DNA of 46,231 nucleotides, taken from Plicaturopsis crispa FD-325 SS-3. Taxonomy: Eukaryota; Basidiomycota; Agaricomycetes; Amylocorticiales; Amylocorticiaceae. The translations under genes were made by a program, and so were the position numbers. The notes beneath the pieces are model-generated. The model was not told the DNA's origin, made no database searches, and saw only the letters and a list, made by a program, of their open reading frames with translations. The stretch covers positions 665,209 to 711,439 of the forward strand of contig KN832559.1 of the NCBI GenBank assembly GCA_000827205.1. The letters run 5' to 3'. How positions within the stretch are numbered: the first letter of the stretch is position 1; each line of letters starts with the position of its first letter. Shown one piece after another: positions 3,421-46,231 of this stretch.

Positions 3421-5902
3421 TCAGACGGTCTGAACGACCGGCTCTTTCTCGTCGATCTTTTCGGCTGAATTGTTTGATACGACGGTAGTGGTCTCACTGG
3501 GGAGGCCCATATGCGAGGTGTCATAACCATTGGCCTCGAGATACTCGCGGAACTGCAGTGTATGAAGAGGATGCAATCAGTAAGCATAGAGTGACGAGTT
3601 GCACAGCGCTTGAAACAGACCTTCATATCCTCCTCGACCATGCCATCGTGGTCCAAGGGCGTGATGAAGAAGTAGGTTATCCCGGCACTGAGGACGGCGA
3701 GGGCGCTACCAATCCAGAAAGGACCTGTGTTCCCTTTGACACTGTCCGAGCCACCGAAAGCGTCGATCATGGCCGGGAACGCTGCACGCATGCGCATCAG
3801 CATCACCACACATGCGGAAGAGATATTTGGACGTACCCCAGTCTCCAACGAACGCGCCAACCTTGCCTGTCAAAAAGTCAGAAATGATGCGTTTGCGGCG
3901 TCGAATAATCTGGGCCCTACCTATAGCGGCAGCGAGTCCGTAGTACTGACCACGAACTGCGGTGGGGCCAGTCTTGGAGGCAAGCAGACCAAGGCAGTTT
4001 CCGGGACCGACCTCGCCGAGGGCCAAAAAGATACCATAAACAACCTTTGGAGCGAGAGCGTGTCAGTCAGCGCGTGCGGGCACATACCGAGCGAATACTC
4101 ACAGCAAATGCAGCTACATGGTCTGCCAGTTTGGTGTAGAGGCCACTCATGATGAAGCCAATTACGGCTTGGGACAAAAGACCCGTAATCTGGGGCAAAG
4201 TGGTGAGAATGAACTCATATCCCAGCTCGAGAGACATACCATGGTTGCTTTAGGTCCAAGGTAATCAACGATGAATGCACCACCAAGAGTACCGGGCATG
4301 TAGAACAGACTGTGGTAGTAGTTAGCAAGAAGTACGCAGGTCCGACTCGAAGTGAAAGGCCGTACTTGATTATGACATTCCAGCCCAAAACCACGGTGAG
4401 AGACGTGTTTCCACCCGTGACACTACGCAAGATAAGTTAGTTGGCGCAAAAAGAGGGACCCACGAAACAGAACATACGTGTTCACTACCGTCGAAGAGTA
4501 AAGTCCGAACTACATAGACGTCTGTCAGTGGGCTTGACCATTGGCAAATGTACACAGAACAACGAACCGGGTAGCTGCAATGCAACACATGGTCAGTGCC
4601 TTTCACAGAAATACAAGTTGAAGAGCATACGTGATGAAATCATAAATGAACCACGTAAGGCTGAGGGCGGCCATTCCCTTCCAATAGCGCTTGATAATTA
4701 ATTTGTACGGGATCTTGGCCCTCTTCATGCCAGATTCCTTGTAACGCGTCGGCTCCTGCATGTTCATACGCCATATGAACACCGCCACGGCGGGGACCGT
4801 GCCGAGACCGAGAGAAAGACGCCAGACGGCGCGGAGGTGATTCTCGCCGCAGCTGTTGCGAAAGATTCAGCGTTACACATAGACAGTGGGCAAGGCGAGG
4901 TGACCGACATCCAGAAGAGAACAAGCGGCACGAAGGCAGAGATGACGAATCCGAAATCAATCATGGAGTCTGTGGATAACGATGAATACCACTCCTGCAA
5001 AGCGTCTCGGGGAGAGATAATGCGTACTGGTAGCAAGTGCAAACCACCGATGTTGCGAGTTTTTGTTCACACCCGGCTCTTCAGACTGCTCCGAAGCCGC
5101 AACGGACCCGCAAGGGTACTCAGCACCCACTCCGATACCAAGGAAGAAACTATGTCACGGTTCGAAGTGAGATTTTACTATTATAAACGATCATGCATTC
5201 GTGCTCACCGGCATGCGCTAAGCATAGATAACATTCCCCCTACGCTGTGGTGTGCCCCGCTGGACGCAGATGATAGTGCGGAGAAAAATGCAACAATGCC
5301 GGCTGCCAACATCTGCAGAAGTAGTCGAGATTATTAATTCCGCCATATCCAGTGGGAGGGGGAGAACACACCATTCCAAATTTCCTTCCAAGTTTATCGG
5401 AGAGGTAGCCGAACACAAGCATGCCAACGACGGTTCCAGCAAATCCGACACTGGTCAGGACGTTGCTGTAATTATTCTTCGCAAGAGCGGCCTTCCCGTA
5501 TATTCTCGTCAAAACTGGTCACCCCCGTATGTTCATTTTCATTCCCAAGCGTGAGCAGAGAATCTCTTACTCGTGTTAACTGCAATATCGTTATCAGAAG
5601 TCGTGCCAAAAGCTATGCATAAATCCTCGACGTACCATTGCCGATGACACCGTTCGCGTATCCTGAACACGAGGATGAGCACCGTCTCTGTGTAGCCTAA
5701 ACTCGACACATGCACGTACCATCCGAGAAGAGGGCGGTACCACATCTATTGAGAAGAGACCAAGCCGACGCAGAGAAAGCAGATAGCGCGCTTAACGTCA
5801 GATTCAAGTTCGAGGACGCATGCGGAAAATGGCGTACGCGAATATCAGCGAGACGCTGGCGAATTTCGACCTCCTCTGCACCGGCGCAATTCCGTCGGCC
5901 AT
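3421..5902 (-). CDS. MFS transporter, Git1/phosphate-permease-like
   Basis: Eighteen exons give about 492 residues: 5838-5902, 5720-5745, 5636-5662, 5571-5579, 5372-5514, 5209-5312, 5028-5149, 4909-4969, 4631-4852, 4568-4574, 4478-4509, 4366-4422, 4240-4309, 4103-4189, 3921-4044, 3837-3866, 3621-3781, 3421-3552. Every junction is GT-AG and phases agree. MFS hallmarks include the loop motif [12 protein letters not shown], the segment [16 protein letters not shown], a central cytosolic loop with MQEPTRY, and YDFITYPFGLYSS. About twelve membrane helices are expected. The closest family I recognise is the fungal glycerophosphodiester/phosphate permease group (Git1-like, plasma membrane H+ symport), but the substrate is not readable from sequence. 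Exons 4 and 10 are only 9 and 7 nt long. The tail is hydrophilic, ending near EKEPVVQTV. Confidence 0.9.
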
Positions 5903-9889: not shown

Positions 9890-12800
9890 ATGATCTCCAA
9901 AATCAAGGACATCTATGGGTACGTCATTCACAGCCGTCTTCATTCAAAGGCCCCTTAACTCAACTGACTTTTATCAGCCTTGCCGCCATTCTGGCCTACC
10001 TGGGTCAGGGCGAGTCAAATGCCGGCTCAACCGCCGTCTCCGGCTCAGCGCCCGCGGAGTCTGCTAACTACTTATACTCCCGCGCATCCACTGAATACAA
10101 GGATGTCATTGCTCAAATGTTCGAGTGGGACTGGTTAGTCACATTGCACCCTCAGACATTCTGAATCGCAATAACCCCCTGTCTTTCGTTTATAGGAACA
10201 GCGTCGCAGACGAGTGCACAAATTTCCTGGGGCCTGCTGGGTACGGTTATGTACAGAGTATGTGACCCTTTTGGCTTCCCCAGCGGATATTTTTATATCT
10301 TGAATTTACAGCGAGCCCCGCCAACGAGCACGTCAACGGCTCGGAATGGTACACGGACTACGAGTCTGTCACTTACAACATCACATCCAAGCGTGGATCC
10401 CGTGCTGAATTCAAGGCTATGGTTAAAACTTGCGCCACTGCCGGCGTCGGTGTTATCGCTGGTGCGTTGCTTGTACATGTTTGCGGTCGACAGCTTACTG
10501 AATGATTCCTTTCTTCCTGATAGACGTTGTATGGAACCACATGGCAAACGGCACAGGAGGTGTAGGTGTTAACGGCTCTGAATTCACTCACTACGACTAC
10601 CCTGGCATCTACTCGGCGGAGAATTTCCATCACTGCGGGCTCGAGGCCAATGACGACATTGTCAACTACACCAGCCGTGCGGAAGTGCAGACTTGCCAGC
10701 TTGCGGGTCTCGCAGATCTTGCGACCAACTCGTCCTTTGTGCAGGATCGTCTTGCCAAGTACGGTGACGACCTCATCTCGCTGGGCGTGGATGGTTTCCG
10801 TCTGGATGCCGCCACCCGTAAGTCTCCAGCCTTTTGGTTTGCGATATGTTCTTCTAACCGCCGGCGCGACCATAACAGACATTCCCGCCAAAGACATTGC
10901 TGCCATCCTGGCCGCCATGAAGACCAAGCCTGCGTTCGTCACCCAGGACGTGCTCTACGGACAAGGGGAGCCCATCACTCCCAATGAGTACACCCGCAAC
11001 GGTGATGTCCTCGAGCCCCGTTACACCACTGAACTGTTCAACGCTTTCACGACTGGAAACCTTTCCGGCCTTGAGGTGCTGAACGGTCGCGGATGGGTCA
11101 AGAGCAGCAAGGCCAACACCTTTGTTGTCAGCCCCGACACCGAGCGCGTGAGTCATCTTGACGGTATTTTTCGTGGCGCCATCGACTGACATATATCCAC
11201 AGAATGGCGAGTCGTTGACCTTCAACTCCACCAACAACACGTTCATCCTCGCTTCCGTCTTCAACCTTGCTCACCCTTACGGAAGGCCCACTGTCCTGTC
11301 GAGCTACTACTTCGCCGACAACGACACCAGCGTCGGAGCGCCCAACAACGGTCAGTAGGTTCTGTCTTTGACGCGCAGCTGGTGCTAACTCTCTACCTAC
11401 AGGCACCGGAGACTGCGAGACTAACAGCGGATGGATCTGCCAACATCGTCAGCTCCAGATCGTCGGCATGGTTGGCTTCCGTAACAACGTCAAGAACAGC
11501 TCCCACCTCAACAACTTCGTCTCGGGAACCAGCGCCCAGATCGCCTTCGGGCGTGGATCTGCTGGCCACGTCGCCATCAACAACGCAGACTCTGAGTGGA
11601 CTGTTACACTGAAGACTTCTCTTGAAGACGGCTCGTACTGCGATGTCGTCGGCGGCTACGTCAACAGCGCAGGAAACGGCTGCTCCGGAACTGCGTACGT
11701 CCTTCAGATTTTCGCCGATCGTGCTGCGACTGATACGTCGCTCTGAATTTTAGGGTCACTGTCTCGTCTGGCTCGATCACCATCACTGTACCCGCTAGGA
11801 ACGCAGTTGCTCTGCACACCGGTGCCATGTTCTCCACCAGCAGCGGCAGCGGCAGCGGAGGTAGCGGCGGCAGCGGCGGAAGTGGCAGCGCTGGCACCAC
11901 CGTCGTCAGCGGTGGTACGACCATCGTCAGCGGCGGCACGACCATCGTCAGCGGCGGCACCACCATCATTGGAGGTACTACCATTGTCGCAGGCACCACC
12001 AAGACCAAGAAGCCTACCGGCAAGAAGACCACTGCTAAAGGCTCTACCACCACGGCTGCTGGCGGCGGCGGTGGCGGCGGTTCCGGGGCCACTACGACAG
12101 CTCCTGCCGCTACAACGCCCGCAGCTGCTACCACTGATGCGTCTGGCACCACCAGCACCTCAGCAGCACCCTCCGCATCTGTGACTGCATCTTTCGCCGT
12201 GACCGCTAGCACAGCCGATGGCGAGGTAAGTTGGTCATGCATCATGGCGCGAGATGGATATTAACGCCGACTCTCGCAGAACCTCTACGTTGTCGGTAAC
12301 ATCCCCGAGCTCGGCAACTGGGATCCTTCTGGTGCTGTGAGTGTGCTCGAGATTTTGCTTCAAGGCTTTTGCTGATCGTCTACACAGGTCCCTATGGCTG
12401 TCAACAGCTCCGCTGCTGTGACGCGCAAGAGAGATACCACCAATGTCTGGACCGTCATCATTGAACTGCCTTTGATCACGCGTTTCGAGTACAAGTACCT
12501 CAAGAGGGCTGCTGACGGCACTGTACGTTCTCTTCTTTAATTTTGTTCCGAACATGGCTAATGTTGTGCGGAATAGTTCACGTTCGAGTCAGGCCGCAAC
12601 AGGGTCTACCGCACAGGTGGCAACCCCGGTCAAATCTTCTTCTGCGCAGTCTTCAAGTGAGCCTTTAATTTGCGCCTATTTTTGCGCTGTTGCTGATGGG
12701 CTTTGAAGCAACAAAGCGTCGACTGCTTGTGCGCCGGCTACAACCTCTGGCGCCTCCTCGTCGGCGACAGTCAGTGCTACCGCCACCGACTCTGCTACTG

Positions 12801-14313
12801 TCTCCGGCTCTGCGTCTGCCTCGAGCGTTGCGTCTGCCTCGAGCGTTGCCTCCACCTCGAGCGTTGCCTCCACCAGCTCGAACAGCACGACCTCTGCCAC
12901 TGACAGCGTCAGCGTCAGCTCGACCGCCTCTGGCAGCGCCAGCGTCAACGCGACCGTCACTCTGACTACCGCCACAGATGTTACTACCTTCACGACAACG
13001 TCGACTGGTGTTAGCACGACGGCGGTCATTACGTCGACCGCAACTGATGTTACAACGGCAACTGTCACGGACTCCACGACCGGTACAGACTCTACGACTG
13101 CATCGGCCACGTCCACCGCGACCGACGTCTCCACCGCGACCGACTCTACCACCGCGACCGACGCAACCATCACCGCGACTGATTCTACTACCGAGACTGC
13201 AACCACCACCGCAACTGACACTGCCTCTAGCTCAACTATCAGTGCTTCTGTTGCGTTTGCGGACACTGGGTCAACTGAGGACGGCGCGGTACGTCGCAGC
13301 GCATATCCAATCTTTTTTAGTATGCTGACTATCCCTGGTTTACTAGACTATGCTCGTGTCCGGCAACATTGATCAGTTGGGCAACTTCAACCCTGCGGAT
13401 GCCATCGACATGTCTCCGGACACAACTGCCAAGAGGGACATGACCACCACTTGGAGGGTCACAGTCGAGATCCCAGCAGGGACTAAGTTCGAGTACAAGT
13501 ACCTGATGAAGTACGCCAACGGAACGGTACGTAGCCACACTTTTAGTCCTTGAACCATTCATTGACTCTCCCTCCAGACTGCTTTCGAGACCGGCGCGAA
13601 CAGGCAATTCCAAGCACCTTCCAGCGGCGGAACTGCAACTGCCAGCGGACAATTCGAGTATGTCATTTTTCTTTTCTGCAAATAGCGTCGGTCCTGATGT
13701 AGATCGCAGTAACACCTCTTCCTCCACCACGAGTGGCAGCGCTTCCGCGACCACCACCGACGTTGTCACAACGTCCACGGACTCGAGCACGACTGCTGTT
13801 ATCACGACCACCGCTACCGTCACTGCGACAGAGACCTCGACCACTGACGTCTCGACTGCAACGGAAACCTCGACTGCTACTAGCACAACCGCGACCGATG
13901 TCACCACCACAACGGACTCCACGACCGCTTCTGTCACGGAAACCGCGACTACCACGGTTACTGATGTCTCGACTACGCCCTCGACCACGGCGACCGATGT
14001 CTCCACGACAGCTACCGATGTTTCCACGACAGCTACCGATGTCTCCACTGCCACGGAGTCCACGACCGCTTCTATCACGGAGACCGCGACTACCACGGCC
14101 ACCGATGTCACGACCACGGCTACCGATGTGAGCACGACGGAGACCACTGCAACAGAGACGTCGACCGCGACCGAGACATCGACTGCGACCGAGACGCCGA
14201 CCGAGACGTCGACTGCGACCGAGACGCCGACCGAGACATCGACCGCGACAGAGACGCCGACCTCGACAGAGGCGTCGACGACCGCAGAAGAGACGACGAC
14301 CGTAGGACCTTAG
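9890..14313 (+). CDS. Secreted GH13 alpha-amylase-like protein with two CBM20-like domains
   Basis: Sixteen exons give about 1195 residues: 9890-9918, 9978-10133, 10196-10257, 10312-10461, 10524-10817, 10879-11147, 11203-11350, 11403-11694, 11754-12225, 12280-12336, 12388-12522, 12577-12656, 12709-13288, 13347-13526, 13578-13657, 13710-14313. A short hydrophobic leader precedes a GH13 barrel: QMFEWDW, region I DVVWNH (133-138), region II GFRLDAATH with nucleophile Asp227. The usual catalytic Glu of region III is Asp254 (VTQDVLYG), and region IV reads SPDTER instead of NHDTER. After the barrel come a Gly/Thr repeat linker, a CBM20-like module (YVVGNIPELGNWDP), a Ser/Thr-rich linker, a second module (LVSGNIDQLGNFNP), and a 200-residue Thr/Ser-rich tail without a GPI-type end. 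Expected role: binding and perhaps hydrolysing starch or glycogen outside the cell. Activity is doubtful given the two changes. Confidence 0.9.
11902..12000 (+). repeat. In-frame 21-bp minisatellite coding VSGGTTI repeats
   Basis: About four to five imperfect copies of a 21-bp unit (GTCAGCGGCGGCACGACCAT plus one base) encode a Val-Ser-Gly-Gly-Thr-Thr-Ile repeat between the GH13 barrel and the first starch-binding-like domain. The unit length is a multiple of three, so copy-number change would keep the frame. It probably forms an extended, O-glycosylated linker. Confidence 0.8.
13716..14310 (+). repeat. Thr/Ser-rich degenerate coding repeat (protein tail)
   Basis: The last exon of the amylase-like gene is built of short degenerate units that translate to variations of TATDVSTT and TATETST. 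Tandem near-identical stretches are visible around 14000-14060 and 14150-14260. Such tails in secreted fungal proteins are heavily O-mannosylated and act as stalks. Length polymorphism between strains is likely. Confidence 0.75.
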
Positions 14314-33441: not shown

Positions 33442-35900
33442 TCACTCTTCGTCGGGTATCTCACCGGCGTCGTCAGGGATGACGGGGATACTGGCTGGCT
33501 GTGGTTTCGTCTCGAGCAGGTTCACCATGTCTTCGAGGTCGGTGGTGGACTTGACGGGCGACGCTTCGGGTGCGGTTTCAGTCGCTGGCTCGTCGGCGGG
33601 AGCGTCTTGAGCTTCATCGGAGGCGTGGTGGAGGTCGGACGCGGGGTCGTGCGACTCGGGTTCGGGGGCGGCCTCAGGCTCAGCGACGGCCTCCGCTTCT
33701 TCGTGCTCTGGCTCGTGGGCTGGTTCTTCTTCGACGTGAGCATCAGCCTCAGCCTCAGGCTCGACCACGACTGGTGCCGGGGACACTGATGGCTCGGTGG
33801 GATGTGCCTCTTCAGCTTCAGCTTCGTGGGGTATGCTCTCCGCGATCTCCTCATCATGAACCGGCTCCTCGACATGGGGCTCTTCTGCTTCCTCGCCCGA
33901 TCCTGGCTCGTGCACATGCTCATGGTCGTCACTGAGTCCATTCTCGTGCGACGACGGGTCGTGGTGATCGTCGTCCGACGCCGCCGCACCATTACCCGCC
34001 TTCTTCACCGCCGCTTGGCGAGCGACGCGCGGTTTCAACGGCCCCTTCGCCGCCGCCCCGCCGCGCGCAGGGGTGGCCGTCTTCGCACCCCTTGCGGGGC
34101 TGCTCGACACGGGGGTGCGCGCGCGCGAGATCGACGCAGCGGTAGGCTTGCTGAGGCGCTCCGCCGCGCTGCTGCTGAGCGTCGTCTTCTTCGTCGGCGT
34201 CGGCGCGGGGGGCTGGTTGCGCGCCTTTGCGAGCGAGGCGGCCGTCGGCGCGAAGAGGCCGGACCCGGAGGAGGGTGTCTTGGGGCGCGTGGCGGGTGTC
34301 TTGGGCCGCGACGGCGTGGAGGGGGTGCTCTTGGGCGTGGGTTTGGCGTGTCGTGTGGCGGACGTCGTGGAGGTCGTGGAGTGGCCGGTGTGCTGCGGCT
34401 TGATCGGCTGGGACGCGGACGTGCTGAGGGAAGAGGCCTTGGGCGTGGGCGATTTCACGGACTGCCTAGCACTGGTCTTGGGCGTCGGCGCGGTGCCCAT
34501 CGAGGCTCGTCCAGGTGGTATCTTGACTGGGGACGTGACCCGTGCGGCAGCGGCTTTGGTGGGAGCAGCGAATGAGCCGATGGTCGACTGCCGTTGCGGT
34601 GGAGGAGACTTTGGTGCCGGGGCAGGAGCTGGAGCTGGCTCTGGAGACTTGGGCGGATCGGGGATCGCGACTGCGGGCGGCGAGGTGGCTGCGATGCTGC
34701 TCGGCGGCGAAGTAGGCTGCGACGCGGGTGGCGTAGCCTTCAGCGATGGAGATGCCCACAGCGGTGCCGCTGCGACCACTGCCGGTTTGTCGTTGACAGT
34801 GAAAGACTTTGGCGGCCATTCCCTCTTCTCCTTCACCTCCTCCTTGGCGGAATCGCCTGTGGTATGTGACGCGACGCTCGAGGAGCGGCCAACAGATGGT
34901 GAGCCAGACGCTGGCGGTGGCTTCTTCTGCTCAANNNNNNNNNNNNNNNNNNNNNNNNNNNNNNNNNNNNNNNNNNNNNNNNNNNNNNNNNNNNNNNNNN
35001 NNNNNNNNNNNNNNNNNNNNNNNNNNNNNNNCGCAGCGGTAGGCTTGCTGAGGCGCTCCGCCGCGCTGCTGCTGAGCGTCGTCTTCTTCGTCGGCGTCGG
35101 CGCGGGGGGCTGGTTGCGCGCCTTTGCGAGCGAGGCGGCCGTCGGCGCGAAGAGGCCGGACCCGGAGGAGGGTGTCTTGGGGCGCGTGGCGGGTGTCTTG
35201 GGCCGCGACGGCGTGGAGGGGGTGCTCTTGGGCGTGGGTTTGGCGTGTCGTGTGGCGGACGTCGTGGAGGTCGTGGAGTGGCCGGTGTGCTGCGGCTTGA
35301 TCGGCTGGGACGCGGACGTGCTGAGGGAAGAGGCCTTGGGCGTGGGCGATTTCACGGACTGCCTAGCACTGGTCTTGGGCGTCGGCGCGGTGCCCATCGA
35401 GGCTCGTCCAGGTGGTATCTTGACTGGGGACGTGACCCGTGCGGCAGCGGCTTTGGTGGGAGCAGCGAATGAGCCGATGGTCGACTGCCGTTGCGGTGGA
35501 GGAGACTTTGGTGCCGGGGCAGGAGCTGGAGCTGGCTCTGGAGACTTGGGCGGATCGGGGATCGCGACTGCGGGCGGCGAGGTGGCTGCGATGCTGCTCG
35601 GCGGCGAAGTAGGCTGCGACGCGGGTGGCGTAGCCTTCAGCGATGGAGATGCCCACAGCGGTGCCGCTGCGACCACTGCCGGTTTGTCGTTGACAGTGAA
35701 AGACTTTGGCGGCCATTCCCTCTTCTCCTTCACCTCCTCCTTGGCGGAATCGCCTGTGGTATGTGACGCGACGCTCGAGGAGCGGCCAACAGATGGTGAG
35801 CCAGACGCTGGCGGTGGCTTCTTCTGCTCAAACCGGCCAATGAGGTTTGCTACGCTCGCACGAGGCCTTTCGTCCGGCAGTGGCCTGTTTGGTATGGAAA
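33442..35900 (-). CDS. Pro/Ala/Ser-rich protein, copy A, broken by an assembly gap
   Basis: A leftward frame ends at 33442 with the tail PVIPDDAGEIPDEE. I do not recognise the family. After ASVANLIGRFEQ near the N-terminus, the sequence is Pro/Ala/Ser/Lys-rich with many Ser/Thr-Pro sites and a repeated motif (LFAPTAASLAKAR and RLSKPTAASISRAR), then an acidic Glu/His/Pro-rich C-terminal third. This composition recalls disordered cytoskeleton- or chromatin-linked proteins, but nothing decides it. The frame is interrupted by 97 Ns (34935-35031), and 800 bp on either side are identical, so the copy as assembled carries a spurious repeat. The true start is unresolved; the right boundary given is where the conserved-looking frame fades. 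Confidence 0.65.
34135..34934. repeat. Left copy of an 800-bp exact duplication flanking the gap
   Basis: Every base from 34135 to 34934 appears to recur at 35032-35831 (offset 897); the translated frames on both sides match residue for residue. The copy ends exactly at the first N. Confidence 0.93.
34935..35031. other. Assembly gap (97 Ns)
   Basis: A run of undetermined bases inside copy A of the Pro/Ala/Ser-rich gene. Both ends abut the same 800-bp sequence, the usual sign of two contig ends that overlap but were not merged. Confidence 0.99.
35032..35831. repeat. Right copy of the 800-bp exact duplication flanking the gap
   Basis: This is identical to 34135-34934 and begins exactly after the last N. 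It continues without a break into the N-terminal part of copy A. Confidence 0.93.
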
Positions 35901-36213
35901 TCGCGCGTGAGATGGTGGTGCGATATACCAGACGACTGAACGTACATGGGTGGTGCTGCGGAACTTTGCTTGGAAGCGGGAAAAGAGTGGATTACTGAGT
36001 TTCAGAAATAATATATAGACGTGTAGAGAGGTCGTGGGGCAGTTTAAAGGCGATACCAGAGCGAGACGGAGAATGTCGTTGGGAGCAGGAGACAACGGTC
36101 TCATGTGCACCGTGTATCATACATAATTCTTCCGCCACCCGATTCCGTCGAAGTTCTTTCTGTCATGCATCTATGCAAGTGATTATTGGAGTCTTCAAAT
36201 GAGCACATATCGT

Positions 36214-37140
36214 CTATTGGCACAGCGGGTGGATGACCGTCGTCCGCGTGACCTGGCCATTATGCATTTGTAGATTACAAGTTTGTACACGATCCAAGCC
36301 CTGAAACCAAAATGCCAGAATTTCCCCTTTCTCATTTTCGCCGTCCCTCCTCATACCTTCGCCGCGGCGCAAGGCCGGGGCGTAACTTCGGTATCTGTGA
36401 AGAATGTAAGTGCCGCGTGCGGCGTGAGGCTTACCGTACGTCGGAGTGCGCGGAATGGGCCTTCGTAGCCGCGTAGTTTCGTCAGTCGGTGCAGGGAGTC
36501 TCGCAGTATCATGAAACTCACCGTTTTCGAGTCCTCGCGCACAGGGTTTGCGCAAACTCGATTTACCGGGAAATCGCGAGAGCCGTGTCTTGCTTGTGTA
36601 CAGAGCATGCGGATAGATAGCGGCTTCGAGCCACCGCGGCACTGCTGATGATCTGCAGTAGATCCTCGGGTCAACGTCACGACGCGCGTACTCACCTCCT
36701 CGCCACGATTGCACGCGCGTCTGGCACCTGTAAAGCGTTCGCCGGTGACTGCGCGGTGCCGCATTTGTCGAAAGGGTCCGCGCAACAAGCACGACCGTCC
36801 GAGGAGGATCTTGCGGGTGTCGTAGGTGCGGAGAGCGCGAGACGATGCAAGGTGCGGCGGGGACATCCCGAGCAAGTCGGCCGATAAGCTAGAGTGGATA
36901 ATCCCAGGTCAGCGCTGGATGAAATGAATGCAAGGAACAAGACGCGCACTCACGTCATCGCGGCGTTCGCGTGTCCAAAGTGATCAGAGCGCCTACCCGA
37001 CGAATGCTGAAGATCAGTCACACTCAAGCAAAGAAAGCGAGAAAGCTTACCACACGATGAGACCTCCAAGCCAGCGCGACCGTGCTGACAATCGCAACGA
37101 GACTCCCCCCTAGCATATACGCTCGCCTCGGGAGATGCTG
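36214..37140 (-). other. Possible small spliced frames continuing from the tandem array
   Basis: On the minus strand several well-formed introns can be read (for example donor at 37050 with acceptor near 36998, donors near 36954, 36693 and 36522, and a 56-nt GTATGAGG...TTTCAG intron near 36300-36355). The exon at 37051-37140 encodes a hydrophobic segment (MLGGSLVAIVSTVALAW) that could be a membrane helix and connects by a good intron to the last unit of the tandem array. I recognise no family and cannot fix a single reading frame, so this is a candidate transcribed region rather than a gene call. Confidence 0.3.
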
Positions 37141-37196: not shown

Positions 37197-39117
37197 CGGA
37201 CGCCCGAAAATCGAGAAATAATGTATTCTCCCCGTCGCGGCGGTGACAGCGAGGCCTCCCGTCGAAGTGTGTTTACCCGAGGGCTGCAAGAAATTGTCGA
37301 GTCAGTAATGTAAAAAGGTTAGAAAAGATTTGACTTACATCGTGATCGTCGAACTCGAGATCGGGCAGAGGTCCGGATCGCGCATCACGGTCGGCGGACG
37401 CCCAAAAATCGAAAAATAAATCACACCCTTCTGCACGGGCGGTGTGGGTGTACCAAGCAAGCCGAGAGGCCCTGCAGGCTTCGCTCCTGATTGCTCACTC
37501 GCGCAGCAAGACGTGGGATTCGCCGAGGACTGCAGCAAATAGCCGAGGTTAGTATTCCGGACTAGTATGCGAGAAAGCTTTCGAGGTACCTATGATCGTC
37601 GAACTCGAGATCAGGCAGAGGCCCTGACCCTTCGTCGACTAACGTCGATCACGCTCGCCGGACGCCCGAATATCGAAAAATAATTTGCTCCCTCCACCAC
37701 GACGGACATGGCGGCAGAGAGGCCGCGAGGCCTCGCTCCCTATCGCTCGCTCGGGTCTCGCGTAGCGAGTTGTATGATTAGCCGAGGGCTGTAAGAGATA
37801 GCCGAGGTCAGTAGTGTGCGGACATACGAGACGACAATCAGCTTACCTTGTCATTGTCCAACTCAACATGAGACTCCTGGTCGGCAACGATGCGCACGAC
37901 GCTCGCCGGACGCCCAAAAATCGAAAAATAAATTTAACCCCTCTGCGCGGGCGATTTGGGTGTACCGCGCAAGCCGCGAGGCCCTGCGGGCCTCGCTCCC
38001 AATCGCTCGCTGGGGTCTCGCGTAGCGAGACGTGTAATTAGCCGAGGACTACAAAAAATACTCGATTCAGTAATGTATGAGTATACGAGAAAGCTCTTGA
38101 CTTACCTTATCATCGTCGAACTCGAGATCAGGCAGAGGCCCTAACCCCTCGCAGACTGACGCACGCCACTGTTGCCATATATATCGAAAAAATAGATTAC
38201 TGCTCCCTCCATCACAGTGGATTGGTGTATACGAGAGCCGCGAGGCCCTGCGGGCCTCGCTCCCAATCGCTCGCTCGGGTCTCGCGTAGCGAGACGTGGG
38301 ATTAGCCGAGCAACTGTAGGAAATAGCCGAGGTCAGTGAAGTAGGAATCTACGAAACGACATTGAACTTACTTGACGATCGTCGAACTCGAGATCGGGCA
38401 AAAGCCCAGACAACTCGTTGTCGTCGTCGAGTACCGCCCGGCACGCTCGCCGGACGCCCGAAAATCGAAAAATAAATGCGCGAGCGCATACCGTGGTTCC
38501 AAAGAAGCCGCGAGGCCCTGCGGGCCTCGCTCGCTATCGCTCGCTCGTGTCTCGCGTAGCGAGGCGTATTGTCAAGGGAAGACTGCAGGAGATAGCCGAG
38601 GTCAGTGATAGAGTACACGGCTATACAATCAATATTACACTTACGATATGAGGACTCGAAATAAAGCAGACTCGGACGCCTCATCGTCGTTGACTGACGA
38701 CAGCGCAATTGACGCCTACCGTAGGCGGCGGACACCCGAGTATTGAAAAAGGGAAGCCGCGAGGCCCTGCGGGCCTCGCTCGCGTAGCGAGACGTGGGAT
38801 TGGCCGAGCATCTGCAGAAAATAGCCGAGGTGAGTAAGTTGGGACAATACCAGAAAGCTGTCGACTTACCTTATCATCGTCGAACTCGAGACCAGGCAGA
38901 GAGGCGCCAACACCGTCGGCTACCGTGCAGCGGGACGTTGAAAGAGCGGGGCGCCGAAGATACCGTGGGAGGAGCAACAGACGCGAGGCCCTGCGGGCCT
39001 CGCTCTCTATCCATCGCTCGCGCCGAGCGCAGCGGCGCGAGATCGTACCCGAAGGACTGCAAAGAATGGCCCAGGTCAACGTTGTTCGACGATGTACACA
39101 ACGTGACAAGACTTACG
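37197..39117 (-). repeat. Tandem array of exon-intron units (about 8 copies)
   Basis: A unit of about 250-270 bp recurs head to tail. Read on the minus strand, each unit has an acceptor (TTTCTGCAG type), an exon-like block, and a donor (mostly GTAAGT). The blocks are 37197-37283 (truncated), 37339-37529, 37590-37788, 37847-38048, 38106-38313, 38372-38582, 38645-38811 and 38870-39056, separated by introns of 55-62 nt; one more donor lies at 39116. Blocks share TCCTCGGCTAAT at the start, RYARPERAIGSEARRASR-like coding, a GCGAGGCCC hairpin, TTTTTCGATTTTCGGGCGTC (FSIFGRP-like), and CTCGAGTTCGACGATGATAA at the end (LEFDDDK). Most blocks are one base over a multiple of three and contain stops in some frame, so a single long protein is unlikely. 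It may be a decayed repeat-domain gene or a spliced non-coding transcript. Confidence 0.8.
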
Positions 39118-40445
39118 AACAGGAGAATATAGCTACTAGCGTCGAGCCTCGACGTCTTGGGGCCGAGATTGCGAGCACTAAATGCTGCTCGCGGGGCGCC
39201 GGAATATCGGGTTTGCGAGTTTGGGGAGGGTTACGATAGCGTTTAAGTGGTCGCCCGGCCAGGCTGCGGGCCTCGCAAGTAATCATGCTCGCGTCTCGCG
39301 TAGCGAGACACTTAGAGGGAAAGACCTAGATGTTCGGTCAATACTGGTGCATAAGAACTTGATTGGGGGAGAACGACGTACCCGGATAAACGTCCCGGGT
39401 TGCGATACGTCGATAGAATCGACGGCACCTACGAAGCGAGCCTGCGAACGGCCGGGGATGGGAGCACAGCATAGCGCGATAGACAATACCCCCAGCTCTC
39501 TACCCCGTGCTCTCGAGAGTAAATGGCTTGCGCTCGCACTGGAATGCTTCCATGCGACGCTCTGTCAGGTTTTTTATAAAAAGAATCTATATTCATGGAG
39601 AATGACCTGCAGTCATCTGTCAGCGTCGTCTGAGATAAAATCAAGGAAAAATTGACGCACTCGATTATATACCCATCCATCGTCCTCGTCACTCCTTTCC
39701 CTTCGTCCCCGTATGCCCACGTCTGTGCCCAACGAACGGTGCCCGTACGGCGAGTTGACGGCGGTCGGAGGCAAGCAGCGCAGTGGCTGAAGTCGCGCGT
39801 GAAACCGATGGCCGCGGAGTGCGAAAGCGGTGGCGCTGAGACTTCAGCGTCGAGCGGCGTCATTCTTGTCCTCTCCCAGCCATCTGCCGCATCAAGGATG
39901 GTCAGTGCGTGCCATAGAATGATGCCATGCATAAAATAATAGTGACTTACGGATTGCAGATCGTTGTGGGAGTAGTCGACCTCAACGGAGGATGTCCGAA
40001 AGAAAGCCACAGAGGACAAGGCGAGCATTATGACTGTAATAATACGGGGGATGCTGTCCAAATGGTGGAACGAGACTCACAGTACATATACTGCGCAGAG
40101 GCTACACGCTGCCCGAAAATACATAATACAGGTCAGTGGCCGCCGCCGCGCGCCGCACCACATTTCGGCATTTGATGCTCCATTGGAAAAATAGGTAAGT
40201 CCGAAATTATGCTCCCGAAATTCACTGATGCGGGCGCGCGCCCCTTCCGACGGCCTCCAGGCATCAATTTCTGAGTTGCCCGCCATTGTTCCTCCGCTTC
40301 TCAATATTTGGTAAGCCGTAACATCCCTGAAAATAATTTTTACCTTTCCTTTTGCAGACACTCCGTTACCGTCTGGTGCCTGCCAGCAAATATTATCCTT
40401 GGCACGGGCATTCAAATTATCATATGTAAGTGTATTTCACGGTTT

Positions 40446-40522
40446 CACCGGAAACTAGCCCAGGGACAATGGAGCTTGCAGGACAAATGCAATCTCGATT
40501 GTCCCTGGACCTGTTTCCGGTG
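40446..40522. repeat. Long imperfect inverted repeat (stem-loop)
   Basis: The left arm CACCGGAAAC plus CCAGGGACAAT is mirrored by ATTGTCCCTGG plus GTTTCCGGTG on the right, with a 4-base internal mismatch in each arm and a loop of about 27 bases. An RNA from either strand would form a hairpin of about 25 bp. It could be a small foldback element or a small-RNA precursor. Confidence 0.75.
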
Positions 40523-42800
40523 GTGCAGCGGCCTGGGCCATGCCGCGGTGGGCAGCCGCTCACATCACCAGTGCAAGTTAGTGACATTCACACTGAGTAC
40601 ATTCTTGGCTGAGACTCAGAGCACTGGCACCCATGTTTAGTATTTCACTGAGTTTGAGTTACGGACCACGGTAGACGGTAGAATCTGAGTTAGCATCAGG
40701 AGTCGGAATCTGCGAGCCAGGTTCCAGCTCAAGACTAGGGCAATGACTTGCTGAATGTTGAGAAATTGATCAGCATTTCAAGGCTGAACACATATCACTT
40801 TTGTGGCGTCTCTGCGGCCAGTACTATTGTGATTTGGGCCCCTAGTACAGTGATAAAGTGAGGCGGTTAGCAGATGGTTTGTAGAAGTGGGCTCGGATGT
40901 CCAGATTCAAAGCACTCATCTTGAAATATGCCGACTTCAAGATGCATCCAAGGCAGAATTAGATAAGGCTTAGTAGTAGTAAGCATGCATCCAACTACTC
41001 TGATGCTATCCCTCGTTGCACAAGTTGGGCTAAAATCGATGGGGACAGGGAGGGAGTAGCAATGGATGCTATCAGAGAGCCTGAGTCCAGAATACTAACC
41101 TTCGGACTGCTAGATTTCAGAACTGTATTTTGAAGACATATGCACATACTGGAATTATCGAGACAACAGACAGACTGTTTGCGAGAAATGTATGTGGGAT
41201 ACACGAGCAGAAACGGGAGCAGGACGATCGATGTGCAAGTCAAGAATTCGGAAACTGGACGCGGAAACTGCGTCGATCTTCAAGTTTAGAATTTCCTGTA
41301 AACTTGTTTCGAACACTCACCATTGGTTTTTCTATACAAAAGCAGCGCTATACTGGTTGCCCGTAGTCTACTGGTATACCATTCCATTAATCACAACGCC
41401 GGGACTAAGCTGCCTTCATGGTATGCACCATTTACTTTCGCGCGTTGAGAAACGCGTCGAGTAACGGACTGTGAGTTACTGATTTCCTGGACATTAAAAT
41501 CTCATCTAACCGACCGCATCTTAATGAAAAATAGATCGCTTGTGGACGGCTACGTGTTTGCCGAAGACAACACGAGGCTACGCAACGCTCTGTTCAAAAC
41601 CGCCAACCCTGTCAGCCCACTTTCAAGTCGCCCCATCGCCGTCGCGCCGCGCATCACATTCCTTGCTTCAAACCGCTCTCGCTTTCATCAGTACTCACCC
41701 GACACCTCTTTGCAGCACACCATCGCATCTCTGGCGATATCCTTGGCTCGCACACGACGGCCGAATACGCGCGCAAAGCCCTGCGCTGTCGCCGTCTCTC
41801 GGACGGCAGCGATTCACAACGGCTCAGGGATCTCAGGGTACAATTCCGAGGTCTGGGTACGCACAGTGTCGACTCCACGCAGGCCGTTGCCACCTCAATT
41901 CCGCGGCCTCCGTACTGTCGACCCTGCACGGCAATACTCGCCTCGCCCCAATTCCTGCAAATATGACGCGCATTCTAGCTCAGGACCCTGCCCGCCAAGG
42001 CCGCCTGCGCGACGGAAATACATTTTGTGGGACGACAGTACATCCGCGCGACCAGAAGGAGGGAGCAACAGGTACGCCAATATATTGTATCACGTACTTA
42101 CAGAAATACGCGAGACGCCGCGCGTTGAAACGCGCGACACATATTTTGTGCGAGCTTCTTGCGCGGAGAATCCGGAGAAGGTTAGCCGAGGATGGGCGGT
42201 ATAAAAAGGTGCGCGATTTCTTTCTTGCTTTCAACATTCTCCTCCCATTTGATTCCGCCCTCAATCCCCCATATCGGTCACCACCTCCGATCCTCTCCTC
42301 GTTGCTCGCTCCAGTGCCGAGCGGCACTTGTTCGTCGGCGCGGCGGCAGGTAGGTTGAGACGTTTACATGCCCGCCCCCGCACTCACACACTCTCGCCGT
42401 CTAATTGCATTCGTCCGCCGCGGCGCTGCGCATGCGCGTCGCTGTCTGCAATGTTGCCCGAGCCGCCGACACCTTTCGCGATTTTTTAGCGGGTTGGAAC
42501 TGACCGGACTCCCCTTCCACCCGATAGGCGCAAGGCGGTGTACACGATGAGCGAATCAAATCCGCCGTCGAGCGCGCCCTGATTACAGACACTCGACGAG
42601 ATCTGTAGGTCGTTGCCCAATTGCCGCTTCGAGTATGACACTGATTGTTCACTTTCCGGACGACAGCTACACGGCGTAGGGGCGGCGTGCTCTGGGTGGC
42701 ATTCTCCACGTCGCAGCCCGTAGAGAACGACTGCACGTCGCTCTCGTCTTCAAACCAAGCCCGTACGGCATTCGACCGGGACGCGAGGACATGGACTCGG

Positions 42801-44773: not shown

Positions 44774-46231
44774 TCACTCTTCGTCGGGAATTTCACCGGC
44801 GTCGTCAGGGATGACGGGGATACTGGCTGGCTGTGGTTTCGTCTCGAGGAGGTTCACCATATCTTCGAGGTCGGTAGTGGACTTGACGGGCGACGCTTCG
44901 GGTGCGGTTTCAGCGGCTGGCTCGTCGGCGGGAACGTCTTGAGCCTCGTCGGAGGCGTGGTGGAGGTCGGACGCGGGGTCCTGCGACTCGGGTTCGGGCG
45001 CAGCCTCAGGCTCAGCGACGGCCTCCGCCTCTTCGTGCTCTGGCTCGTGGACTGGTTCTTCGATGTGAGCATTATCCTCAGCCTCGGGCTCAACCACGAC
45101 TGGTGCCGGGGACACCGATGGCTCGGAGGGATGTGCCTCTTCAGCTTCAACTTCGTGGGGTATGCTCTCCGCAATCTCCTCATCATGCACCGCCGGCGGC
45201 TCCTCGACATGGGGCTCTTCGACTTCCTCGCCCGACCCTGTCTCGTGCACATGCTCATGGTCGTCACTGAGTCCATTCTCGTGCGACGACGCGTCGTGGT
45301 GATCATCGTCCGACGCCGCCGCCGCCGAGCCATTACCCGCCTTCTTCGCCGCCGCCTGGCGTGCAGGCGCAAGCCCAACGCGCGGTTTCAACGGCCCCTT
45401 CGCCGCCGCCCCGCCGCGCGCAGGGGTGGCCGTCTTCGCACCCCTTGCGGGGCTGCTCGACACGGGGGTGCGCGCGCGCGAGATCGACGCAGCGGTAGGC
45501 TTGCTGAGGCGCTCCGCCGCGCTGCTGCTGAGCGTCGTCTTCTTCGTCGGCGTCGGCGCGGGGGGCTGGTTGCGCGCCTTTGCGAGCGAGGCGGCCGTCG
45601 GCGCGAAGAGGCCGGACCCGGAGGAGGGTGTCTTGGGGCGCGTGGCGGGTGTCTTGGGCCGCGACGGCGTGGAGGGGGTGCTCTTGGGCGTGGGTTTGGC
45701 GTGTCGTGTGGCGGACGTCGTGGAGGTCGTGGAGTGGCCGGTGTGCTGCGGCTTGATCGGCTGGGACGCGGACGTGCTGAGGGAAGAGGCCTTGGGCGTG
45801 GGCGATTTCACGGACTGCCTAGCACTGGTCTTGGGCGTCGGCGCGGTGCCCATCGAGGCTCGTCCAGGTGGTATCTTGACTGGGGACGTGACCCGTGCGG
45901 CAGCGGCTTTGGTGGGAGCAGCGAATGAGCCGATGGTCGACTGCCGTTGCGGTGGAGGAGACTTTGGTGCCGGGGCAGGAGCTGGAGCTGGCTCTGGAGA
46001 CTTGGGCGGATCGGGGATCGCGACTGCGGGCGGCGAGGTGGCTGCGATGCTGCTCGGCGGCGAAGTAGGCTGCGACGCGGGTGGCGTAGCCTTCAGCGAT
46101 GGAGATGCCCACAGCGGTGCCGCTGCGACCACTGCCGGTTTGTCGTTGACAGTGAAAGACTTTGGCGGCCATTCCCTCTTCTCCTTCACCTCCTCCTTGG
46201 CGGAATCGCCTGTGGTATGTGACGCGACGCT
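44774..46231 (-). CDS. Pro/Ala/Ser-rich protein, copy B, 5' truncated by window end
   Basis: This is the same protein as copy A, read leftward to a stop at 44774, with its N-terminus beyond the window. It runs without a gap through the segment that is duplicated around the Ns in copy A, showing that the intact gene has that segment once. From about 45400 to the end it seems identical to copy A. The C-terminal third differs by scattered substitutions and small in-frame indels (VGLAPARQAAAKK against VARQAAVKK). Similarity stops about 20 bp past the stop codon. It is either a recent duplicate or an assembly product; function is unknown, as for copy A. Confidence 0.7.
   Translation of the reverse strand, partial: SVASHTTGDSAKEEVKEKREWPPKSFTVNDKPAVVAAAPLWASPSLKATPPASQPTSPPSSIAATSPPAVAIPDPPKSPEPAPAPAPAPKSPPPQRQSTIGSFAAPTKAAAARVTSPVKIPPGRASMGTAPTPKTSARQSVKSPTPKASSLSTSASQPIKPQHTGHSTTSTTSATRHAKPTPKSTPSTPSRPKTPATRPKTPSSGSGLFAPTAASLAKARNQPPAPTPTKKTTLSSSAAERLSKPTAASISRARTPVSSSPARGAKTATPARGGAAAKGPLKPRVGLAPARQAAAKKAGNGSAAAASDDDHHDASSHENGLSDDHEHVHETGSGEEVEEPHVEEPPAVHDEEIAESIPHEVEAEEAHPSEPSVSPAPVVVEPEAEDNAHIEEPVHEPEHEEAEAVAEPEAAPEPESQDPASDLHHASDEAQDVPADEPAAETAPEASPVKSTTDLEDMVNLLETKPQPASIPVIPDDAGEIPDEE

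Follow-up and report, generated by a model that had tools for sequence, protein, structure and literature searches.

The window analyzed here, a 46,231-nt stretch of DNA from Plicaturopsis crispa FD-325 SS-3, carries on its minus strand an array of eight introns and seven complete exon-like blocks (positions 37284..39116), defined by splice sites, alignment and pattern counts. Read along that strand, the introns lie at 39116-39057, 38869-38812, 38644-38583, 38371-38314, 38105-38049, 37846-37789, 37589-37530 and 37338-37284, and all are short, within 55-62 nt (60, 58, 62, 58, 57, 58, 60 and 55 nt, respectively). Every donor is GT (GTAAGT in six introns, GTAAGC in one and GTACCT in one) and every acceptor is YAG, in agreement with an earlier note on this DNA, which had placed eight minus-strand introns of this size with consensus splice sites at the same positions. 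The blocks between them measure 187, 167, 211, 208, 202, 199 and 191 nt, five of the seven having a length of 1 modulo 3, and the units align together as a single diverged repeat family; the note's account of drifted blocks of 167-211 nt, most of them 1 modulo 3, was borne out by these measurements. The array is absent from the Tandem Repeats Finder listing, probably because its copies are too diverged.

A search of the same genome, which the note had suggested for the unit, was performed with the array on 33.2 Mb in 49 contigs (the assembly contains gaps) and identified related arrays on C1 (three), C12, C28 and C3; all evolutionary evidence presented here accordingly comes from paralogs inside one genome. 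Six loci are full: three on C1, whose arrays (C1a, C1b and C1c) are about 10-12 kb apart, and one each on C6 (the window), C12 and C22. All six combine an array with a motif block and a 77-nt hairpin, the C22 locus with its hairpin, motif block and array having been found via the loop-proximal part of the hairpin. Array-only fragments of two units and about four units are present on C3 and C28, respectively, and the hairpin and motif patterns (up to three mismatches) had no match on either contig. With very common words skipped, at least 30 array DNA matches were obtained, all of them in family loci. Introner-like elements, in which the same intron is spread across many unrelated genes, were rejected as a candidate since the array matches are confined to these loci.

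Several other sequences were noted near the paralogs. A 92-nt stretch on C10 (L021:4951-5042; C10:242950-243041, minus strand) is 80% identical to the region directly past the C22 array and adjoins an N run of at least 14.9 kb, possibly marking a further family member hidden in the gap. Beside the C22 locus, C22:223861-225006 is 97% identical to a stretch about 20 kb away and is probably part of a protein gene. A short inverted repeat adjoining the C3 array fragment (L012:5438-5494), to which two microRNA models match far below threshold, is perhaps a small mobile element. Directly downstream of the C12 locus, at L014 ~2300-1960 (minus strand), there is exon-like sequence, which we take to resemble the start of a glutathione S-transferase.

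A donor-branch-acceptor pattern was matched eight times in the sense direction and once in antisense within the window array, compared with a mean of 1.78 and a maximum of 6 in 50 dinucleotide shuffles; the eight sense matches comprise seven of the eight introns named in the note plus an extra one at 37590-37643, with 39057-39116 missed. The same pattern gave sense/antisense counts of 9/2 for C12, 10/0, 7/0 and 6/0 for the C1 arrays, 2/0 for C3 and 3/1 for C28, counts that include overlapping alternatives (shuffle means 0.6-1.5) and that for C3 and C28 stay within what shuffles reach (at most 4 and 5). Across loci the array introns are 50-65 nt long, apart from one overlapping alternative of 70 nt. 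Of the seven C1b array introns, six were traced to the other two C1 loci (the first C1b intron mapping to a partial upstream copy in L011), and GT and AG were retained in 12 of 12 cases, even though the interiors of these introns are 67-97% identical. The one exception, outside this mapping, is the first donor of the C1c array, which is GC.

The array forms the middle of a gene-like minus-strand locus of about 5.9 kb, extending from ~42209 to ~36308 and reaching about 3 kb upstream and about 1 kb downstream of the repeated units. At its 5′ side lies a conserved block (41861..42249, minus strand) with a TATA-like CCTTTTTATA in the 42209-42194 stretch. This block is 76% identical to C12 over 399 nt and 67.7-70.3% identical to the three C1 copies over 201-232 nt, and its CACCTTTTTATA is identical across the four aligned loci. 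It could be aligned in five of the six full loci; for C22 there was no blastn match and only a similar TATA-like string, seen by eye. Judging from its sequence, the block probably contains the core promoter and the region in which the transcript would start. Within a stretch conserved with C12 and at least partly with C1 (41588-41499), alignment of five copies defined a motif block, TTTTCATTRAGAT..TCGSTTAGATSAGA, at 41499..41542 (minus strand), in which C22 matches C6, C12 and C1 by blastn (81-83% over 42 nt). Its pattern occurs at six places in the genome, one per full locus and always on the same side of the hairpin, and the reversed control gave none; since the pattern was built from the family loci, this shows that no seventh was found and is not an independent discovery. 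A convincing common fold was not found for the motif block.

Further along the minus strand, the 77-nt hairpin is followed by a conserved block defined by alignment (40113..40440), the two together (40522-40113) being 73% identical to C12 over 416 nt and at least partly kept in C1. Beyond the array, a probable last intron of 40 nt (36395..36434, minus strand, GTAAGCC...CACAG) is proposed, followed by a probable 3′ terminal exon (36308..36394, minus strand) recognized by alignment with C12, to which it is identical in 84 of 87 bases by eye. Conservation begins directly past the acceptor. In the genome search the stretch 36425-36276 reached 85% identity over 150 nt and involved C6 and C12 only; the terminal exon did not fold more stably than expected (z 0.95 and -0.32).

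The 77-nt hairpin itself (40446..40522, minus strand) has a 7-nt loop and resembles a microRNA precursor in its stable stem and small loop (MFE -51.3, z -10.2). Sliding-window folding of the window locus ranked it as the strongest structure (z -7.4, the next being -4.3), and all seven copies at the six loci fold with z-scores of -7.4 to -10.3. The loop-proximal stem is nearly invariant and the basal stem covaries: in the seven-sequence alignment 11 of 29 pairs carry compensatory changes (14 cells), a result seen in 0 of 500 shuffles, and controls slid by 1-3 columns yielded at most four pairs with double changes. The seventh copy arises from the third C1 locus, where two hairpin copies (L011:2753-2828 and 4198-4273) flank a 160-base gap and represent either a local duplication or an assembly artefact.

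Such a hairpin raises the question of whether the locus is a host gene for a small RNA, with the hairpin as the functional product and the hairpin exons passive or stabilizing in the primary transcript. In the passages of PMC9757828 on well-supported fungal microRNA-like loci, short hairpins of animal-like length are typical, and the present loci resemble these in having one compact stable hairpin each (two in C1c). They differ in that the hairpin, here a predicted one, sits in a gene-like locus with an array of hairpin exons. We consider the host-gene explanation unlikely: it gives no reason for the array to have retained its splice sites and its exon hairpins as well, C3 and C28 keep arrays although they lack a match to the 77-nt hairpin at up to three mismatches, and the invariant part, about 9 bp per arm, is shorter than a small RNA of 20-22 nt.

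Most of the repeated exons contain a GC stem capped by a G-N-A triloop. In most array exons a small hairpin comes first (commonest form GTCTCGC-TAC-GCGAGAC), followed by the GCGAGGCCC-GCA-GGGCCTCGC hairpin. On the minus strand of the window the latter, with its flanks, is found at 38982..39005 in unit 1, 38758..38781 in unit 2 (whose exon is shortened), 38509..38532 in unit 3, 38239..38262 in unit 4 and 37975..37998 in unit 5; unit 6 has a degenerate copy, the palindrome GCGAGGCCTCGC at 37725..37736 with the triloop lost, and the copy in unit 7 (37463..37486) is weakened by three mismatches to the commonest sequence. In unit 4 the stretch 38235-38330, which covers the start of the exon and 17 intron nucleotides, has a folding z-score of -3.4. 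When the 24-nt palindrome with its flanks, GCGAGGCCCGCAGGGCCTCGC, was searched in the genome (up to three mismatches), 45 matches were obtained and the reversed string gave none; all 45 are within the arrays of C1, C6, C12 and C28 and all read G-N-A by eye, a loop not demanded in that search. The exact palindrome had no match in viral contigs. In 13.4 kb of arrays, triloop hairpins with a stem of at least 6 occur 57 times, 39 times with a G-N-A loop; 80.2 kb of control sequence holds 21, none of which has that loop. The array copies are related by descent and not independent, and the orientation of the hairpins, being a consequence of tandem duplication, provides no independent support either. 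Altogether 56 exon hairpins were counted over eight loci. A 16-base pattern of CGTCC type (up to one mismatch) was matched 14 times in forward and 3 times in reverse orientation, compared with 5 and 0 for the reversed control; 7 of these 17 sites lie outside the family, and the genome search suggested no target for this motif.

The stems vary in sequence. At one position of the stem, C28 and C3 have a G-C pair in place of C-G, and in C22 the stem sequence is replaced (GGCAGCGC-GAA-GCGCTGCC) with stem and loop retained; many C12 hairpins are imperfect. Across 29 distinct exon hairpins, standard pairs fill 90.5% of pair cells compared with 75.2% after shuffling, and 31 double changes were counted compared with 10.8 (0 of 2000 shuffles), figures favored by the selection of these sites partly for likeness to both arms. 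Because the sites were also selected by the G-N-A loop, the loop is no independent evidence in that test. Among 21 units of similar sequence the double-change pairs numbered 3, against 2.7 in shuffles (293 of 500 reached it), and the strong signal emerges only on adding C22, whose eight hairpin copies share an origin and are largely one change in descent. Past the hairpin, C22 units resemble those of C1 (mean local score 20.4 compared with 16.1, sd 0.36 and maximum 17.2 in 60 shuffles); compared with C6 units they showed no likeness beyond shuffles (17.2 and 16.7, sd 0.47). Compensatory stem changes of the kind that mark a structured lncRNA were therefore found in the 77-nt hairpin and, with these selection caveats, appear to be present in the exon hairpins as well.

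Every stem is also a palindrome in DNA, and the copies are dispersed over several contigs, so a role of the array at the DNA level was considered, in which a DNA-binding protein would recognize the palindromes, or these would extrude as stable mini-hairpins, within a mobile or structural DNA element. G-N-A mini-hairpins are unusually stable as DNA, and mini-hairpin DNA features in aptamer work. A DNA-level role leaves two observations unexplained, the one-directional GT..AG and branch signals and the conservation of the last exon beginning at its acceptor, and it is judged improbable on an analysis that, among the marks of a transposable element, covered inverted repeats within 150 nt.

The coding potential of the arrays was assessed in several ways, since the earlier note had offered, besides a spliced repeat RNA, a decaying gene family grown by exon duplication. 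The array introns are of a size typical of fungal genes. In the spliced frame of C1a, mismatches at codon positions 1, 2 and 3 were 60/61/51 against C1b and 70/72/60 against C1c, whereas an RNF220-like control exon gave 10/12/25 and 8/9/29. Only 1 of 11 exonic indels between C1a and C1b and 1 of 23 between C1a and C1c were multiples of three (2 of 34 overall); the control exon shows codon bias but also carries non-triplet indels, so one of its copies may be damaged. Codon periodicity in three array segments was low (z -0.89, 1.29 and -0.47), the control exon reaching 2.0 (p 0.05). The 700 nt past the C1a array gave z 3.7 (p 0.002), which is the kind of signal expected of protein sequence and may reflect coding exons of another gene. 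Also 3′ of the C1a array, at L009:7459-8142, is an exon that matches the RING finger at 37.8 bits (cut-off 27) and, weakly, RNF220 at 25.6 bits (cut-off 26); its copies beside the other C1 arrays differ through non-triplet indels.

Sixteen ORFs of the arrays and their flanks matched no Pfam family at E≤0.1 (a 17th sequence was the RNF220-like control). A single ORF, of 143 aa and from the array, was searched against the genome and gave three matches, all in the window's own array, so that the search for an intact homologous protein gene, by which the note would have judged the units to be simple pseudogene copies, returned the array alone. Long stop-free runs, on the other hand, count in favor of a protein and against a noncoding reading. 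After splicing they reach 397 codons in C1a and 391 in C12 (0 of 100 shuffles each), 288 in C1b (3 of 100) and 197 in C6 (7 of 100), and without splicing 425 in C1c (0 of 100) and 342 in C1b (1 of 100). They are attributed here to an A-poor, repeated sense strand. Few stops interrupt any frame of the C1 arrays, and along the C1a run each of the three frames reads through the palindrome; since all frames are nearly free of stops and frames shift between copies, the runs were set aside as a sign of coding.

For a protein gene enlarged by exon duplication, codon-position bias and triplet indels were thus lacking in the C1 arrays, and neither Pfam nor the search of the same genome produced a recognizable or intact protein relative. 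Compensatory stem changes are likewise unexpected in a decaying protein gene. A decaying or frame-rotated protein family is accordingly disfavored and regarded as highly improbable. The duplication of exon-intron units that the note envisaged stands; the decay from a protein does not agree with the ORF search, the Pfam result or the conservation of splice sites and pairing. Its statement that splice sites are better kept than any reading frame is upheld by the retention of GT/AG in 12 of 12 mapped cases, compared with 2 triplet indels in 34, and retention of splice sites without a retained frame, as read from these alignments, is the behavior of a spliced structured lncRNA.

Known classes of RNA were sought with Rfam in the window and in five loci (L001, L010, L012, L013 and L014; L009, L011, L015 and L016 were left out). 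The window had no match at the gathering score, and the five loci at E≤1 gave just three matches, all sub-threshold. No tRNA genes were found in the window. One match in L014 (7083-7184), of snoZ279 type, scored 27.1 bits compared with a cut-off of 54, lies outside the L014 array and was judged to be due to chance. The layout of the locus recalls the tandem exon-intron arrangement of snoRNA host genes in the passages of PMC11028025, in which case the functional RNAs would be carried by the introns. Introns of 50-65 nt could not accommodate a box C/D RNA, no Rfam snoRNA reached the gathering score where searched, and the lone snoRNA match is the one rejected above; a host of intron-carried small RNAs is disfavored and is the least probable of the explanations considered. 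A literature search did not find such a family among the titles listed, its coverage leaving out most subscription papers and preprints.

Two other regions of the window drew attention. A 97-base N run (34935-35031) falls within a protein gene (minus-strand ORF 33442-35991); the 100 bases leading up to it are repeated 700 bases past it, probably as an artificial duplication at the gap, and the 60 bases past it recur at 34135 and, unexpectedly, at 45488. A cluster of short repeats at 11838-14302, with units of 12, 18, 21, 24, 30 and ~39 nt in multiples of three, is probably a low-complexity coding region.

Taken together, these data show that architecture, splice signals and base pairing are kept in this family and reading frame is not. 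It is very likely, on comparison of the paralogs, that the family encodes a spliced, structured noncoding RNA, and the best reading of the unit alignments is that it grew by exon-intron duplication. The note's proposal of a spliced repeat RNA gains support from the kept splice sites, the compensatory changes in the hairpins and the same architecture at six loci. For the reading as a whole, in which the array supplies the exon-rich central part of a minus-strand lncRNA gene, one of six full paralogs in this genome, we estimate a probability of roughly 0.6. RNA polymerase II would transcribe the gene from the TATA-like site near 42209, and removal of the short introns would join the exons into one RNA. 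This RNA is predicted to present about six to twelve GC stems, mostly G-N-A-capped and in most cases leading into a U-rich stretch and a motif of CGTCC type. The likeliest mechanism, put forward tentatively and by analogy, is that the joined hairpin units serve as repeated protein-binding sites and the RNA as a multivalent scaffold or sponge; protein binding is a guess, made because many copies of one small stem-loop are most likely to be used for multivalent protein binding, as in Xist repeat A. Valency would shift as whole exon-intron units duplicate or disappear, in the manner of tandem snoRNA host genes. The separate 77-nt hairpin would be a likely substrate for an RNase III of Dicer type and may, given its predicted fold, yield a microRNA-like RNA.

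The comparison with Xist repeat A is one of working principle and not of membership. The passages of PMC12101419 describe a lncRNA with 7.5 to 9 tandem units, in each of which a GC-rich core is joined to a T-rich spacer; a high degree of structure is predicted, and SPEN binds the helices rather than a sequence motif. The fungal units differ in that each has its own exon and intron, six paralogous genes exist and the stem sequence is replaced at one locus; a sequence relation is not expected. In the parts of PMC11028025 that concern SNORD115/116 and rat Bsr, tandem units in noncoding genes are gained and lost by recombination; in those genes the functional RNA is intronic, whereas in the fungal array the introns are ~60 nt and the structured part is exonic. 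Fungal lncRNAs are presented in the passages of PMC8113380 as RNA polymerase II products that are usually spliced and give no protein, and no paralogous family with conserved structured exons appears in those passages.

The family may represent an undescribed class of fungal RNA gene, though we put this forward with some reserve. Its features, as deduced from the six loci, would be interchangeable hairpin-cassette exons, stems whose whole sequence can be exchanged with the pairing and the G-N-A loop retained, a valency set by duplication and an upstream microRNA-precursor-like hairpin in the same transcript. To our knowledge, lncRNA families whose structure is under demonstrable selection are rare in fungi. 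With six full loci and 56 exon hairpins, this family would offer natural replicates for the study of lncRNA function, and because so many replicates occur in one genome, the roles of repeat number, hairpin sequence and splicing would be testable by deletion of exon units.
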